Origin: Candidatus Martarchaeota archaeon
GTDB lineage: Archaea; Micrarchaeota; Micrarchaeia; Micrarchaeales; Micrarchaeaceae
Assembly (NCBI GenBank): GCA_023485505.1
Contig: JAMCZN010000033.1
Span: forward strand, 1 to 37,025
Length of the DNA stretch: 37,025 nt
Reading direction: 5' to 3'
In this document: positions 8,937 to 35,878 of the stretch, piece by piece
Layout of the letters: every line of letters starts with the position of its first letter
Numbering within the stretch: position 1 is the stretch's first letter
Translations under genes and position numbers: made by a program
Notes under the pieces: generated by a model
Databases searched by the model: none
What the model was told of the DNA's origin: nothing
The model's input: the letters and a program-made list of their open reading frames with translations, nothing else

Positions 8937-9986
8937 ATGATAAATTTTGATGTAGAATGCAACTTCAACAAAAAGTACAGCATAGTTACGCGAAAAATAC
9001 TCAGGATGTTGTCAGAGGACGCCAGAATCACAATCACTAGCATGGCAAAAGAGCTGAAGCTTTCTAGAAAGGAGGTAGCAAAACGTTTAGAGCATATAGA
9101 AAAGGAATTTGATATCAAATATACATTGGAACTAAGTAAAACGAGGATTGGTTTCAATAATCCACACCTTATCTTGGTAAAATTCAAGGACAAACCAGAC
9201 TATAAAAAGCTTGCAGCTTTATTTGAAAGATCATATATACCGCAACTTGTCGTTCCTGTGCGCAACGGCACATATGACCTGTTCGTTTATGCAAATTCTT
9301 CATCATTCAGGGATTATGTCCAGTGGGACAGGGATATGAGAAGGGAACTGATGTTGAAATATAATATGCAATGGGAACAATCGCAGATAGTACTCACAAG
9401 GCTCGGCCACATACCACTAAGGGACGTTATAATACAAAGAGCCAGAATTCCGGAAGATGAAAAAAAGATGTTAGTCGTTTTGAATGAGAATTCCCGTATC
9501 TCATTCAAGGAGCTGGCGTCAAAACTGGGCATTAACTACAAAACATGTATATATGACTTCAACATAGTAAAGAAGAAGTATATTAAGCGATTTACGCTAT
9601 CGATTACCAAACCGCCACACATATCCATAATGTCTTTATTCGCGAAATATGTGCCTACAGAAGCGCACGAACGCGCAAGCAGCTACTCCAGGCGCCTCTA
9701 CACTACAGACGAACAAAACTCGCTCATAAGCAGGTATATACTGAAGATGTCCTTAATAGGAAGCTATGATTCGTTTGCTATTGGCGTATTTGACTGTTTC
9801 GAAGACTCATATACGTATACAGTACAGAGTTATAGGCAGATATTCGACGATTTCTCACCAACCAGGATAGTTTATGGAGAGCTTGGAGAACCATTGCTAG
9901 GAACGCTGCCAATACGCAGCATGGACATAAAGAAGGAGTATCCGCCGAAAAGGAGACACGATACTTATCTTACGAATCAGCAATAA
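8937..9986 (+). CDS. Tandem winged-HTH regulator, Lrp/AsnC-like
   Basis: A 349-residue DNA-binding protein with two similar HTH units. The first, at about 17-58, contains SMAKELKLSRKEVAKRLEHI. The second, at about 174-216, contains ELASKLGINYKTCIYDFNIV. Each is followed by an alpha-beta segment, which suggests a fused duplication of an Lrp-type HTH plus sensor domain. The long form is about twice the usual Lrp length. It is divergently transcribed from the HAD gene and may control it (inference). A TATA-like ACATTTATTG lies about 30 bases before the ATG. Confidence 0.65.
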   Translation: MINFDVECNFNKKYSIVTRKILRMLSEDARITITSMAKELKLSRKEVAKRLEHIEKEFDIKYTLELSKTRIGFNNPHLILVKFKDKPDYKKLAALFERSYIPQLVVPVRNGTYDLFVYANSSSFRDYVQWDRDMRRELMLKYNMQWEQSQIVLTRLGHIPLRDVIIQRARIPEDEKKMLVVLNENSRISFKELASKLGINYKTCIYDFNIVKKKYIKRFTLSITKPPHISIMSLFAKYVPTEAHERASSYSRRLYTTDEQNSLISRYILKMSLIGSYDSFAIGVFDCFEDSYTYTVQSYRQIFDDFSPTRIVYGELGEPLLGTLPIRSMDIKKEYPPKRRHDTYLTNQQ

Positions 9987-10002: not shown

Positions 10003-12801
10003 TTACCTCTGCCCAAATTTCTCCATGAAATCGCTGTATTGCGCAATCACGGAATCGGGAGATGACGGCTTGACGTTCTTTATTATTGCTTCAAGGTCGC
10101 CCGTGTCTATCTTGCCCTCCGAGCCGGTGCTGATTTCGACTTCCATTGCGGCAGTCCTTGCTTCCCTGCATACGTGAGATATGTCCGCTCCGGTAAAGCC
10201 CTTTGTCAACGTCCCAAGCGCATCGTAATCAACATCGCCAACAGGAGCATTTGAAAGATATGCCATGAATAGTTTTGCCCTGTCCGTGGAATTCGGTGGC
10301 TTGACGAATATGAGCTTGTCGAACCTTCCGGGCCTGAGCAGCGCCGCGTCAAGGGCGAATGGCCTGTTTGTCGAAGCGATTACCACCACGTCGGACAGCT
10401 GCTTCAGCCCGTCGATTTCCTTCAGGACTTCGCTTACCAACTGGGCGCCGAACTCACTCGCATTCTCCCTGTTGGGCACTATGCCATCTATCTCATCAAT
10501 GAACACTATTGAAGGGGCGTTTTCCTTTGCCCTGTTGAATACCTCTTTGATGGTAGCCGTAGAACGCTCCAATCCCTGCTCAGACAGGTCTGCACCGCTA
10601 AGCTCAAGCATTGTTACTCCCTTGATGCTCTTGCTTATTGCACGCATCATCATGGTTTTTCCGCACCCAGGAGGACCGAACATAAGTATGCCGTTAACGG
10701 TCTTTACGCCGTATTTCTTCATTATGTCTGGTCTTGTCAATGGTATCTCTACGTTCTCCCTAACTGCCTTTTTCACGGGAGCAAGCCCAATCACATCGTC
10801 TATTGCCACCTTATTGGTCTCCTCATCCTCTTCTGGCTGCTTGCCCTGGCTCCTTTCAAAATCCAGCTTGAATGTCTTGTATTCATCGATCTGCGAGAGG
10901 GATGTAGATGGTTTGGTGCTCTTTACCGCCCTCAACAGGTCATCGGTCGTTATTTCCAATATTGTTTGTGCGCTTACCGCTTCGCTTACCACCGTCTGGC
11001 CAACGATTTCGCATAACGACTTTATGTCTGCGCCGGAATACCTTTCGGTCACTGCCGCAAGCTTTCCATAATCGATATTCTCTTCAACCGGCAACTGTGA
11101 TAGGTACATTTTGAATATTATCTCCCTGCCCTCTTTGTCCGGAAGAGGCATGTATATTATCTTGTCGAACCTTCCGGGCCTGAGCATGGCTTTGTCCATT
11201 AAGTCTGGCCTGTTTGTGGCGCCGACGATTATGACTCCGCTGACCTTCTGGAATCCGTCCATTTCAACAAGAAGCTGCGATAATGAATGCCTTCTCGTGT
11301 CATCTGCGGTGGAGTTGTCCCTCGTCTCCGCTATTGCATCTATCTCATCTATGAACAATACGCAAGGTCTGTTCTTTTTTGCAGTGGCGAACATGTTGGA
11401 TATGGCCCTTTCGGTTTCACCGGGGAAAGCGGATATCACGCTTGATGCCTTTACTGAATAGAAACCGGCATGAATCTCATTGGATAAAGCCCTCATCAAC
11501 AGAGTCTTACCTGTTCCCGGAGGTCCGAACAGCAATATCCCCTTTACCGGCCTTATATTGTAGGCTCTTGCTATGCCAGGCTGTTCTATCGGGCCTATTA
11601 TTGCATCTTTTATCTCCTTTTTCGTCCTTTCATAGTTGCCTATGTCCCTAAACGACTCCGATGACGATCCTCCGGACAAATCCTCAAAGGCCTCTCCGAA
11701 TTTCATCCTTACGTCGCGCTTCCTTACATCAAGAGACCTTACTACGGTCAGCCCATAGTACTCCAGGAATGCGAGTGACAATGGAGCAATGGCAAAGCTT
11801 GCCAAGGCTATTATGAAAAACAACGGGCTTATGTTAGAATAGATAGATAATGCTATGAACGATATGGGGTATAGTATGCCGAAAGTACTGGATATTGCGC
11901 CCTTATACTTTGACCTGCTCTTGATCGCATACGAATCGATCAGTATTAACGACGCGAAAAGGACCGCCAACTGCGCTATATATGCAAGCGGATTAGACGC
12001 CAAAGCAACAGCTATCGCATTGAATGTCGGACCTATGTAAGGAATTGTCTGATGGCCAGTGAACAGCGACACCGCATAGGATGCGGTTGACGAGAAGTTC
12101 ATCAGGCTCGGCGCGGGCCTTGCGGCGGTATCAACTGCAAGTATTGGCCCAAAATACTGCTGCTCGGACGAGTAGCCTGCGGCCGAATTGTACACGATGA
12201 ACCCGGTATTCTGTATACCAGTTATTGCAGACGTGGCTATTATCATCAGCAACGCTATCAATATGGTCAAAACGGCGCGTTTGTTGCCTATGGTGATTAC
12301 CGCAAAGATGAATGCGGGTATCTCAAACATGTATCCTAGTGGCGAAAACGCCAAGGCGACCATCAGATAAATGAACGCGACGACCCTGTAGTGCATGTAT
12401 CCGAATATGAGTATTATCGTCGCACCGGCCAGGAATGCCCATGCCAAAGTCGGTATCTGGTACATGAATACTGGATACGCAACAAACGTGAATACCACCA
12501 GTCCAAGAAAGGGCTGGTATGCCGTGGCTATGAAGACGACCACGAACAGCGCGACAGCTATCGGCCATGGATAGAACCCTATTGATAAAGACAGGACAAG
12601 GAAAGCCAGGCTTATTATTATGGCATCTACGAAGCTTTCTGCCGTCGTAAGATTGAGCAACTTGTCCTTCACGTTGTAGAATCCTACGCCCTTGGCCTTC
12701 TTGTACTTCTTTCTTATGAGCTGCTGGGCTATTGTGCTTTCGCTCTCTTTTGGATTTTCTGTTTGAACTGCATCACTCTTAGCACTAGGCCTCCCTTCCA
12801 T
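10003..12801 (-). CDS. Membrane-anchored tandem AAA+ ATPase, Cdc48-like
   Basis: A 932-residue protein. A charged N-terminal tail (1-50) leads into a hydrophobic region at about 57-347 with roughly eight or nine likely membrane spans and a more polar loop at about 195-260. Two Cdc48/VCP-type AAA+ modules follow. D1 has Walker A GPPGTGKT (426-433), Walker B VLFIDEID (481-488) and arginine-finger motif RPGRFD (541-546). D2 has GPPGCGKT (709-716), IVFIDEID (765-772) and RPGRFD (823-828). Both modules look catalytically complete. The double-psi-barrel N domain of Cdc48 is absent, and no HExxH protease domain is present as in FtsH. It probably extracts or remodels membrane or membrane-associated proteins (inference). 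It is monocistronic, with a CTATATAG box about 32 bases upstream of the ATG. Confidence 0.88.
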   Translation of the reverse strand: MEGRPSAKSDAVQTENPKESESTIAQQLIRKKYKKAKGVGFYNVKDKLLNLTTAESFVDAIIISLAFLVLSLSIGFYPWPIAVALFVVVFIATAYQPFLGLVVFTFVAYPVFMYQIPTLAWAFLAGATIILIFGYMHYRVVAFIYLMVALAFSPLGYMFEIPAFIFAVITIGNKRAVLTILIALLMIIATSAITGIQNTGFIVYNSAAGYSSEQQYFGPILAVDTAARPAPSLMNFSSTASYAVSLFTGHQTIPYIGPTFNAIAVALASNPLAYIAQLAVLFASLILIDSYAIKSRSKYKGAISSTFGILYPISFIALSIYSNISPLFFIIALASFAIAPLSLAFLEYYGLTVVRSLDVRKRDVRMKFGEAFEDLSGGSSSESFRDIGNYERTKKEIKDAIIGPIEQPGIARAYNIRPVKGILLFGPPGTGKTLLMRALSNEIHAGFYSVKASSVISAFPGETERAISNMFATAKKNRPCVLFIDEIDAIAETRDNSTADDTRRHSLSQLLVEMDGFQKVSGVIIVGATNRPDLMDKAMLRPGRFDKIIYMPLPDKEGREIIFKMYLSQLPVEENIDYGKLAAVTERYSGADIKSLCEIVGQTVVSEAVSAQTILEITTDDLLRAVKSTKPSTSLSQIDEYKTFKLDFERSQGKQPEEDEETNKVAIDDVIGLAPVKKAVRENVEIPLTRPDIMKKYGVKTVNGILMFGPPGCGKTMMMRAISKSIKGVTMLELSGADLSEQGLERSTATIKEVFNRAKENAPSIVFIDEIDGIVPNRENASEFGAQLVSEVLKEIDGLKQLSDVVVIASTNRPFALDAALLRPGRFDKLIFVKPPNSTDRAKLFMAYLSNAPVGDVDYDALGTLTKGFTGADISHVCREARTAAMEVEISTGSEGKIDTGDLEAIIKNVKPSSPDSVIAQYSDFMEKFGQR

Positions 12802-12901: not shown

Positions 12902-13010
12902 CCCGTCGTAGCTCAATGGCAGAGCGATCGGCTGTAGTTTGTTCCTAACATGATGCATGTTAAACATGTTAGATACCGATAGGCTGGGAGTTCAAATCTC
13001 CCCGACGGGA
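12902..13010 (+). tRNA. tRNA-Tyr (anticodon GTA) with intron
   Basis: Acceptor CCCGTCG (12902-12908) pairs with CGACGGG (13003-13009), discriminator A13010. The first pair is C1-G72, the archaeal tyrosine identity element. D arm GCTC/GAGC; anticodon stem ATCGG (12927-12931)/CCGAT (12976-12980); anticodon GTA at 12934-12936. T arm GGGAG/CTCCC with loop TTCAAAT. A 37-base intron interrupts the anticodon loop after position 37 (about 12938-12974). It carries the 8-bp stem CTAACATG/CATGTTAG expected to help form the splicing-endonuclease bulge-helix-bulge. CCA is not encoded. A TATA-like TTTTAAG lies about 26 bases upstream. Confidence 0.95.
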
Positions 13011-28617: not shown

Positions 28618-30159
28618 ATGAAGGCTAGAAGGGGCAATCCGCCAAGAAGGAAAAAATCTGACAAGGGTTCGCAGGACCTTACTGGAAGGCCGCCCATTAT
28701 AAAAAACAATAGCGCAAGAGCTGTCGCCAACATGGCGCTCGTGATTGCCGGATTCCTTTCGATTTATTTGGCATATTCTTTAAGCGCCATAGGGGTGCTG
28801 AACCAATGGCTGCTTGCGCTTCTGTTCTTGTTGGTCGTGGGGTTTGTGATAAAGATAGTCAACTCATTCGTAGGATGGTATGGGTTTTATCTTGCCGCTA
28901 CAAAACACGGGCTCAACATAATAGACAGGATCTCAAGGAAAGCGAAGAGGTTCTGGCTCGCATTGCCCACATGGGGCATAATGCTTAGCTTTGGGCTGCT
29001 CGCATGGCCACTGCTCAAGGGAAAGATATCGAAAAAGGAGTATGTCTTTGGAATAATATCAATAATCCTCATGTACTTCCTTGTGCTTCCATTCTCGCAA
29101 GCGGGGCTTGCATTCATAACACTTCCAAACCTCCCGTCAAACGCAGGAGCGATCGGCGCACCGTCGCTTCCCACACAGGCGCTCGGATGGATAATAGCGG
29201 TAATCGCGGTAATCTCCGGATTCAGCGGATATATCGTAGTGCTGCTGGTTTACCTTACTGCGCTAAACCTTGAGAAGTTTGCGGCGTTCACATCAACAGT
29301 AATAGCAGGGCATACCCAAACGCAGATACTTAGCGGGATAATACCTGGAGTCGCCCCGTTGATTCCAGGGGTGGACATACCATTGTTTGCGGGGCTCGCC
29401 TCCATAATAATACTGCTAATGATACACGAGACGTCACACGGGATACTTTCCAGGCTTTACAAGGTCAAGCTGAAGTCCCTTGGCCTCCTGGTATTCGGGG
29501 TTCTTCCTGTCGGAGCATTTGTAGAGCCGGATGAAAAGGAGGTGGCAAAGCTAGACAGCATAAAACAGGGCAACATATTTGCCGCTGGCTCCGCGATAAA
29601 CTTCTTTGCCACGATAGTCTTCTTCCTTCTCATGCTTGCCATACTGTTCTTTGCAATGCCTGCGCTTTACGTAAACGGGGTTTTTGTAGAGGCCACCATA
29701 GCAAACTATCCAGCATACAACGTACTGCAGCCAGGCATGCAGATCCTGTCTTGGAACGGCCAGCAAATACACAACCTTACGCAATTCGAGTCTATTGGCG
29801 CACATGACACAGCGGGAAGCATAATAAACGTCACTACGAACACGGGCGCATACCACTTTAGGGCATTGGCAGTAGAGAATACGACCCATGGCATAATAGG
29901 GATTGAAGCTTATACGCCAATAAAGACGGGCATCATACCTGGGCTTATCGAATTCCTTTATTCGCTGTTTGTGCTGTCCTTTATCTTCAACTTCTCCCTT
30001 GCCGTGATAAACATGCTTCCAATACCTATGTTTGACGGCTGGAGGATATACAAGACAAACATAAAGAACAACAAGATAACGTGGGCGCTTGGTGTGTTTG
30101 TCGTCGCATTGCTGGTGATAAACTTCGCCTTGCTTGCCTTGATCTATGCTGTGCCTTGA
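28618..30159 (+). CDS. Site-2-protease family membrane metalloprotease (M50)
   Basis: A 513-residue polytopic membrane protease. A basic N-terminal tail (1-30) precedes several hydrophobic helices. The zinc motif HETSH (H270, E271, H274) lies in a membrane segment, and the third ligand region is NMLPIPMFDG with D473. A PDZ-like insert at about 350-435 (YNVLQPGMQILSWNGQQI) separates the two. It is expected to cut transmembrane segments of regulators or signal peptides. Its 3' end overlaps the convergent phosphoesterase gene by 16 bases. It is divergent from the MBF1-FEN1 operon. Confidence 0.9.
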   Translation: MKARRGNPPRRKKSDKGSQDLTGRPPIIKNNSARAVANMALVIAGFLSIYLAYSLSAIGVLNQWLLALLFLLVVGFVIKIVNSFVGWYGFYLAATKHGLNIIDRISRKAKRFWLALPTWGIMLSFGLLAWPLLKGKISKKEYVFGIISIILMYFLVLPFSQAGLAFITLPNLPSNAGAIGAPSLPTQALGWIIAVIAVISGFSGYIVVLLVYLTALNLEKFAAFTSTVIAGHTQTQILSGIIPGVAPLIPGVDIPLFAGLASIIILLMIHETSHGILSRLYKVKLKSLGLLVFGVLPVGAFVEPDEKEVAKLDSIKQGNIFAAGSAINFFATIVFFLLMLAILFFAMPALYVNGVFVEATIANYPAYNVLQPGMQILSWNGQQIHNLTQFESIGAHDTAGSIINVTTNTGAYHFRALAVENTTHGIIGIEAYTPIKTGIIPGLIEFLYSLFVLSFIFNFSLAVINMLPIPMFDGWRIYKTNIKNNKITWALGVFVVALLVINFALLALIYAVP

Positions 30160-34363: not shown

Positions 34364-35878
34364 GTGGACAGTATTAAAAAACCAGCAAAAATGTATACTT
34401 ACATCACAATCATAACCTTAATTTTCGTTCTGTCTCTTTCTATATTGACATATGCAGGCTCTGCGGTAAATACCCCTATAGGCATTGGCCCAAATCCAAA
34501 CCCATTGAACTGCAGCGGCGGACCGTGCATTAACAGAGGTCCAGAAATCAACAGCTCCAGCGGCGGAACGGGGGGAGGGGGCTCCGGAGGTGGAGGGTCA
34601 GGCGGCGGAGGGTCAGGTAGCGGCGGAAGCAGCAGCGGAGGCGCAGGAACAACAAGCGGAAGCATAAATGTCAATTATGGCGCAGCGCCAACAGCGTGTT
34701 CATATACGACGCTCACAACAGGAGATGAATATTTCGCACTAGTCAATGGAAAGCAGTTTTCCATACTGCTCAAATACTTAAATAACAATTATGCCGTTGT
34801 TTTGATAAACAACCAGCCGCTTAACATTTCAATAAACCAGTCATTTGAACAATGGGGCACTTCGACGCTGTATTTGCAGCTGGTTGGCATAAGCTACGCC
34901 TCAGTACCGGCTGCGACATTTGATGTTTGCACCTCAAGCTTCGCAGTATCTCAACCGGCATCCAAACTGTCGTTTGCAAATGCGACCCCAACACCTGCAC
35001 CACCACCAAACCACCCAGCATCGGCAAATACAAACGCCACGCTTACCAAATCGACCACATCCAGCAGCACTGCACTGCCATTTGGCCTCGACCAGACATG
35101 GCCGCCAATAGGCGGTGGGTTGCTTACGCTCGCGGCCGTAGGCAGACTAAGAAGGAGGATGGTGCGCGGAAGGAAGCAGCATAAAGCAGAAAATCCAGGA
35201 ATGATAAGGACGTTCGAGGAGCTTGGAGTGCTTGATACCCTCGCTTTCCTCGCCTTGGTAATCTTTTACTTCAGCAACTACACGATCCTGAGCGCTGCGG
35301 TGGCGTTTTCACTGGGAATAATGATCGCTTATACGCTAGACCACATAAGGAGCAGGAATGCATTCGAAGAATACCAGTATGTCAGGAAAGATGGAATGCG
35401 CAGGTACATGGAGGAACTTGGGCTCGGCGAAGCCATAATACTCATTGTGGCGGTGCTGTTCTTCGTCAGCAACATGCTTCTGCTTGGAATAATCACTATA
35501 TTCTTCTTCGGGATAGCCATCGCTTACTTTGTCGATAGGCTGAGGGACGTGAAGCTTCTGAATACGGTGCAGCAGGGGGTGAACGTAGTAGTGTCCGGAG
35601 GCGAGCCGATACTTAGCAAGTATTTTGCTCCAGCAACAACGCAGCAAACGCAGAAACAGCAGCCAAAAGCGCAACCGCAGGAATCGGACGAGCCAATTCC
35701 GGCATCGGCATCAAATAGCAATGTAACTGAACCGCAGGCAGGGATGGAAGATGCAAACATGGAACAGCAGGAACAGGATCAACAGAAAAAAGACATAAGT
35801 ATGGGTCCTGAAGATACAGCCAACGCCAAACAGAAGAAAAAGGCAAAAGGAAGAAAAGATAAAGAGAAAAAGAACTGA
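34364..35878 (+). CDS. Membrane protein with Gly4Ser-type linker and duplicated hairpin domain
   Basis: I do not recognise a family. In 504 residues: an N-terminal hydrophobic segment (about 11-31), then a Gly/Ser-rich stretch (about 65-97) with three consecutive GGGGS units, an outside domain (about 102-195) with several N-x-S/T sites, a Pro/Thr/Ser stalk (about 205-240), and a hydrophobic stretch near 249-260 before RLRRRMVRGRK. Two repeated units of about 46 residues, at 285-330 and 350-396, each EELG plus two hydrophobic helices ending in D-x-R/L-R-S/D, follow. A charged Gln/Lys-rich tail ends the chain. The GTG start is supported by the TATA position. A surface protein with cytoplasmic C-terminus is inferred. 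Confidence 0.75.
   Translation: MDSIKKPAKMYTYITIITLIFVLSLSILTYAGSAVNTPIGIGPNPNPLNCSGGPCINRGPEINSSSGGTGGGGSGGGGSGGGGSGSGGSSSGGAGTTSGSINVNYGAAPTACSYTTLTTGDEYFALVNGKQFSILLKYLNNNYAVVLINNQPLNISINQSFEQWGTSTLYLQLVGISYASVPAATFDVCTSSFAVSQPASKLSFANATPTPAPPPNHPASANTNATLTKSTTSSSTALPFGLDQTWPPIGGGLLTLAAVGRLRRRMVRGRKQHKAENPGMIRTFEELGVLDTLAFLALVIFYFSNYTILSAAVAFSLGIMIAYTLDHIRSRNAFEEYQYVRKDGMRRYMEELGLGEAIILIVAVLFFVSNMLLLGIITIFFFGIAIAYFVDRLRDVKLLNTVQQGVNVVVSGGEPILSKYFAPATTQQTQKQQPKAQPQESDEPIPASASNSNVTEPQAGMEDANMEQQEQDQQKKDISMGPEDTANAKQKKKAKGRKDKEKKN

Follow-up and report, generated by a model that had tools for sequence, protein, structure and literature searches.

A membrane-integrated Cdc48-like tandem AAA+ ATPase in Micrarchaeota and its possible role as a membrane-protein dislocase

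Introduction

What would a Cdc48-like double ATPase joined to a large membrane domain do in an archaeon whose own genome also encodes soluble Cdc48? Prokaryotes generally have only one Cdc48 type, according to a 2016 survey of the family (PMC5070193). The window analyzed here, a 37,025-nucleotide stretch of contig JAMCZN010000033.1, encodes a protein of this kind, and the literature searched, whose coverage of journals is partial, yielded no report of a membrane-bound Cdc48 from Micrarchaeota or DPANN. An earlier note, made from the letters of the DNA alone, read the gene product as a membrane-resident unfoldase or extractase that lacks a soluble adaptor domain; this is the reading that the evidence presented below best fits, with an activity that we infer from the anatomy of the protein.

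Results

Gene and protein architecture

The gene lies on the minus strand at 10003..12801 (ATG at 12801, stop at 10003) and encodes a membrane-integrated Cdc48-like tandem AAA+ ATPase of 932 aa; all of its parts described below are on the same strand. The protein begins with a Lys/Arg-rich tail that is predicted to be cytosolic (residues 1–56; 12634..12801), of low confidence up to about residue 36 and followed by a helix at 39–53 in the AlphaFold model. The tail leads into a predicted ten-helix polytopic membrane domain (residues 57–348; 11758..12633), which corresponds to the roughly 290 hydrophobic residues of the earlier note. A linker delimited from family alignments and placed in the cytosol (residues 349–382; 11656..11757) carries the family motif K-x-D-x-R-M-K-F-G-E-A-F-E-D-L, and within it a modeled helix (356–368) joins the membrane domain to the ATPases. 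There follow the first AAA+ module with its lid (D1; residues 383–650; 10852..11655), which by its order in the sequence is the module nearest the membrane, and the second with its lid and a C-terminal tail helix (D2; residues 664–932; 10006..10812), which ends in FGQR. Pfam recognizes two AAA domains (best stretch 422–553, second from about residue 705, E 9.5e-80) and two AAA_lid_3 domains, and neither Pfam nor NCBIfam finds a protease domain, in keeping with the contrast to FtsH drawn earlier.

The catalytic motifs of both modules are conserved. D1 has a Walker A motif (GPPGTGKT, 426–433; 11503..11526) at invariant positions of the alignment, a Walker B motif (VLFIDE, 481–486; 11344..11361) with invariant D485 and E486, and invariant arginine fingers R541 and R544 (RPGR; 11170..11181); D2 has the corresponding Walker A motif in the family alignment (GPPGCGKT, 709–716; 10654..10677), a Walker B motif with invariant E770 (IVFIDE, 765–770; 10492..10509), and invariant arginine fingers R823 and R826 (10324..10335). 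In both modules, Walker A, the sensor asparagine, the catalytic glutamate and the two arginine fingers are kept throughout or almost throughout the 82 homologues, so the intact Walker and arginine-finger motifs first noticed in this one protein (E486, E770, R541/R544, R823/R826) are invariant or nearly so across the family. To judge from these residues, both ATPase modules look catalytically intact.

The two pore loops have diverged. Pore loop 1 of D1 (SAFPGETE, 457–464; 11410..11433) has its aromatic position at 459, where 74 of the 82 homologues carry Y, F or W, and its counterpart in D2 (DLSEQGLERS, 738–747; 10561..10590) has lost the aromatic and shows a G-x-E motif instead. The D1 pore loop (WYGE^S) is interrupted by inteins in four class-level homologues (L156, L157, L158 and L159); L156 has a second intein ahead of Walker B (APC^ILFFDEID), and no LAGLIDADG domain was detected in the intein of L159. 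Inteins favor critical sites of their host proteins.

The membrane domain

AlphaFold, supplied with an 82-row alignment, models the whole protein with pLDDT 86.7, and residues 36–372 modeled alone reach pLDDT 94.9 and pTM 0.92. The predicted membrane helices span residues 57–74, 79–95, 97–115, 117–134, 138–151, 156–171, 173–194, 271–294, 300–322 and 327–348, one or two more than the eight or nine spans initially estimated. Between helices 7 and 8 lies a 76-residue segment (residues 195–270; 11992..12219), predicted to be extracytoplasmic, with the lowest conservation in the protein. Counted over 82 sequences, with each outside loop taken together with four residues on either side, the family mean of Lys+Arg is 0.07, 0.00, 0.02 and 0.27 in the four short outside loops and 0.59, 1.23, 2.09 and 3.30 in the inside loops, which fits a ten-span topology with both ends inside and the positive-inside rule obeyed. 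The exact count could be anywhere from eight to ten in the model, in which some helices are short or lie one residue apart, and the number has to be even for the Lys/Arg-rich N-terminus and the ATPases to share the cytosolic face, as they are expected to. It is from the distribution of charge, and from their dependence on ATP, that the ATPases are predicted to lie in the cytosol.

Similarity searches link this domain to no known family. Residues 36–382 of 30 homologues matched no relevant Pfam family, CDC48_N and CDC48_2 included; residues 1–381 matched no PDB chain by sequence; and Foldseek found no PDB or viral structure with this fold at E < 0.001. A known family for the domain was thus rejected, as was the possibility, raised at the outset, that it belongs to a membrane AAA+ family already described in Pfam, NCBIfam, the PDB or viral folds. 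Profile-profile comparison of its parts, which is blind to repeats that have diverged in sequence, found no internal repeat.

Class-level homologues share only 15–24% identity with the window protein in their membrane sequence. The positions most conserved across the class are Y77, P78, G100, P110, Y114, Q115, P117, F152 and G172, among which Y77-P78, Y114-Q115-x-P117, F152 and G172 are nearly invariant. Of the fifteen most conserved positions in the domain, six are at outer helix ends and five at inner ends (permutation p 0.016 for the outer-end enrichment, uncorrected for the choice of region). With its ten helices, confident fold and near-invariant positions, the membrane domain is much more than an anchor.

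Relationship to Cdc48 and other AAA+ machines

VAT and p97 are the closest solved relatives of D1 and D2 alike, and Foldseek matches of the whole model are p97/Cdc48. The protein scores 444.4 bits against the NCBIfam CDC48 model (TIGR01243; cut-off 802.65) and 403 bits against the FtsH model (TIGR01241; cut-off 600), and because both scores are far below the cut-offs it falls outside both curated families. A tree built from 57 AAA modules groups the D1 modules of the membrane protein in one clade (99/94) and its D2 modules in another (100/100), each separate from the clade of soluble Cdc48 D1 modules. The ATPase part may be either a duplicated Cdc48 or an independent tandem, since the tree does not settle the deeper branching order. 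By its two modules with catalytic motifs and lids, nearest to VAT and p97, the protein is classed from its sequence as a Cdc48-family tandem AAA+ ATPase.

It shares with Cdc48, p97 and VAT the tandem modules with lids and the C-terminal tail helix, but other features set it apart from them. The CDC48_N/CDC48_2 adaptor is absent and the ten-helix membrane domain stands in its place, which bears out the earlier suggestion that the soluble N domain had been replaced; moreover, the D2 pore aromatic and the HbYX tail are missing, the latter from all of the membrane homologues (0/82). Canonical Cdc48 relies on the D2 pore loop as one of its main unfolding elements. The hallmarks of PAN and other proteasome ATPases, an OB domain (PF16450) and HbYX, are both absent.

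Other membrane-bound AAA+ proteins offer partial parallels. FtsH, Yme1 and AFG3L2 likewise carry a membrane segment N-terminal to the AAA+ motor, and in FtsH and Yme1 the motor, here D1, lies on the membrane side; FtsH has one AAA+ module, an M41 protease and one or two spans per subunit, whereas the Micrarchaeota protein has two modules, ten predicted spans and no protease. Archaeal LonB is also a membrane-bound AAA+ machine, but it has a Lon_C protease, which the membrane ATPase lacks, and the ten-helix domain shows no relation to it. Bcs1 resembles the protein in being a membrane-integrated AAA ATPase that moves proteins; each of its subunits has just one span and one AAA module, and no similarity to the ten-helix domain was found. 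Bcs1 assembles as a heptamer (PMC10567702). Plant Spaf-like proteins, of the Cdc48 family, have a C-terminal transmembrane region that was gained in core eudicots (PMC5070193) and are similarly membrane-bound double AAA+ ATPases without an N domain; their span is C-terminal, in contrast to the large N-terminal polytopic domain of the archaeal protein.

Distribution and genomic neighborhood

A profile of the N-terminal domain alone, the search proposed in the earlier note, finds the family in 232 of 295 Micrarchaeota genomes. Among 96 high-quality genomes it matches 85, and a class-level profile adds one (86/96). The class-level profile finds no gene in the remaining ten, namely G041 and G067, where a gap in the assembly is a possible cause, and eight genomes from five families (G075, G086, G089, G092, G093, G096, G100 and G165); because these eight lack it, the gene is not indispensable for the phylum. 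Nearly all carrier genomes have one copy, and almost every one of 60 relatives encodes a full-length homologue with 43–57% identity. The related contigs are from Micrarchaeota and include the complete genome of Ca. Micrarchaeum A_DKE (locus L080), which is in culture. Five records that carry the gene are titled 'Candidatus Marsarchaeota' (L076, L089, L091, L099 and L103), and these titles look wrong.

An artifact of assembly, or a domain encoded separately in relatives, had been considered a possible source of the fusion. Both were rejected, as the fusion recurs across Micrarchaeota in independent assemblies and in one complete genome; among the cases checked it is present wherever the contig is long enough, and the short N-domain frames that were checked stop at contig ends. 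A tblastn search found no match to the membrane domain on phages or plasmids, which argues against a mobile origin.

The most frequent neighbor, in 30 of 52 loci (L061–L112), is a gene of about 260 aa that lies immediately 3' of the ATPase gene and converges with it; its product (VKIEFC...LSRVL) perhaps has an OB-fold of the RPA-like kind, judged by eye. The window lacks this gene and has at 8937–9986 an unrelated AsnC-type HTH protein instead. A divergent HIT gene precedes the ATPase gene in about a dozen loci. None of these conserved neighbors runs in the same direction as the ATPase gene, each being convergent or divergent, and we therefore claim no functional link. Just upstream of the ATPase gene in the window, and divergent from it, is a tRNA-Tyr(GTA) gene (12902–13010, plus strand) with a 37-nt anticodon-loop intron, which the default tRNA scan missed. 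The window also encodes, on the plus strand, a 513-aa membrane peptidase of the M50 (site-2 protease) type (28618–30159), not adjacent to the ATPase gene, and a 504-aa ORF with a GTG start and no Pfam match (34364–35878).

The proteostasis setting

Among 97 high-completeness Micrarchaeota genomes, none has a PAN OB domain (controls were positive) or an FtsH M41 protease, and all have 20S proteasome subunits and Lon_C proteins, the latter as genes separate from the membrane ATPase; a LonB-like membrane protease is probably already present. The soluble Cdc48 ends in HbYX in 22 of the 24 proteins checked, which is consistent with its serving as the unfoldase of the proteasome. Having no HbYX, the membrane protein does not use the known motif to deliver substrates to the 20S core. 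This pattern suggests a division of labor in which the membrane protein would extract and something else would degrade.

The eight genomes without the membrane ATPase have three or four Lon_C matches, compared with the usual two. Compensation by extra Lon copies was considered and dropped, since two of the extra matches examined look like pieces of LonB behind an intein, and at least two of the Lon frames (L143, L145) start with an intein remnant; the idea is further weakened in that the gene-less lineages may form one clade. The soluble Cdc48 of one of these genomes, G075, lacks HbYX (L160). A different AAA protein of about 550 aa, with TPR repeats at the N-terminus, a single AAA module and a hydrophobic C-terminus, is encoded at L154 (G060:C4) and L155 (G062:C2), and frames of such length occur in many class-level Micrarchaeota.

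Discussion

A candidate membrane dislocase

The anatomy of the protein suggests a hexameric dislocase, a Cdc48-family unfoldase built into the membrane; to this reading we give an even chance. In an assembly of six copies, some 60 membrane helices would form a ring beneath which the double AAA+ ring hangs. Damaged, orphan or surplus membrane proteins would be recognized or admitted by the membrane domain and drawn into the cytosol by the D1 pore loops, passing first through D1 and then through D2. The unfolded product could pass to soluble HbYX-bearing Cdc48 and the 20S proteasome, to LonB, or to refolding. The hexamer, the substrate, the direction of pulling and the membrane clients are extrapolated from this architecture. 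The proposed principle, a membrane channel combined with a Cdc48-type motor, is that of ERAD (Hrd1 or Doa10 with soluble Cdc48/p97), and one polypeptide would unite ERAD's membrane channel (Hrd1, Doa10, derlin) with its soluble Cdc48; the eukaryotic parts are separate proteins and ubiquitin-dependent, so the analogy is functional and homology of the membrane parts is not claimed. In these archaea, which lack FtsH, such a machine would perform the extraction half of FtsH's job.

Several observations count for a dislocase. The aromatic retained in the D1 pore is what a peptide-threading motor would need, and the inteins of outgroup homologues interrupt precisely the D1 pore loop and the stretch ahead of Walker B, which would mark these as critical sites. 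The conserved catalytic residues, the kinship of both modules with VAT and p97, the place of D1 on the membrane side and a membrane domain that exceeds an anchor also speak for it, as does the HbYX tail of soluble Cdc48. The gene is nearly universal in most of a phylum in which FtsH and PAN are absent and 20S and Lon_C are present. Counting against it, neither an operon partner nor an adaptor ties the gene to proteostasis, the D2 pore aromatic and HbYX are lost, eight genomes dispense with the gene, and no fold match marks the membrane domain as a protein channel. Nor is extraction obviously an empty niche, because a LonB-like membrane protease is probably present.

Alternative functions

The best rival to a dislocase, though one that we consider rather unlikely, is a dedicated factor for the disassembly or assembly of one membrane complex, similar in role to NSF, Vps4 or Bcs1; its membrane domain would dock a specific partner, which the pull of D1 would dismantle or mature, with no part in general quality control. 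The pairing of a D1 that has the pore aromatic with a D2 that does not recalls NSF, in which D1 is the ring with catalytic activity (PMC5070193). The absence of an HbYX tail and of any link to degradation genes also fits such a factor, as does the putative specific binding site suggested by the conserved helix-end residues. However, no conserved partner gene lies alongside, the commonest neighbor being convergent, limited to 30 of 52 loci and absent from the window, and both modules keep all catalytic residues, unlike D2 of NSF, which hydrolyzes ATP weakly.

An ATP-driven transporter or translocase, in which the ten helices form a pore or carrier for protein, lipid or another compound and the double AAA+ ring powers export or import, is improbable. 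The domain is of transporter-like size, with conserved Pro, Gly and polar positions, and uptake from a host would be possible for a host-dependent archaeon, as Micrarchaeota are likely to be (PMC8975820). However, Pfam, PDB-sequence and Foldseek searches linked the domain to no transporter, and comparison of its parts revealed no internal repeat. In the known cases, AAA+ rings of this clade act as motors on polypeptides, which makes transport less likely.

Least probable of all is a Cdc48 that is merely tethered, with the hydrophobic domain as an anchor and substrates that arrive from the cytosol: its catalytic residues are ordinary and its membrane sequence drifts fast, but an anchor would need just one or two helices, whereas the class retains ten, in a confidently modeled fold that includes near-invariant positions, and soluble Cdc48 is already present in the same genomes.

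Implications

If the protein is a dislocase, it may tentatively be placed in a class of its own, not described before: a channel of six subunits and about 60 helices, with a built-in Cdc48-type double-ring motor, which would be an autonomous, single-polypeptide archaeal counterpart of ERAD retrotranslocation that works with neither ubiquitin nor an attached protease. Most members of an archaeal phylum have, beside their ordinary soluble Cdc48, a second, membrane-integrated Cdc48 type, whose membrane domain matches no known fold and which is probably a motor that pulls proteins from the cell membrane. The extraction and removal of membrane proteins in archaea, which lack FtsH, are little understood, and the protein provides a concrete candidate for this process, with a cultured representative in Ca. 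Micrarchaeum A_DKE, as well as a natural comparison for the ways in which ERAD-like dislocation can be organized.
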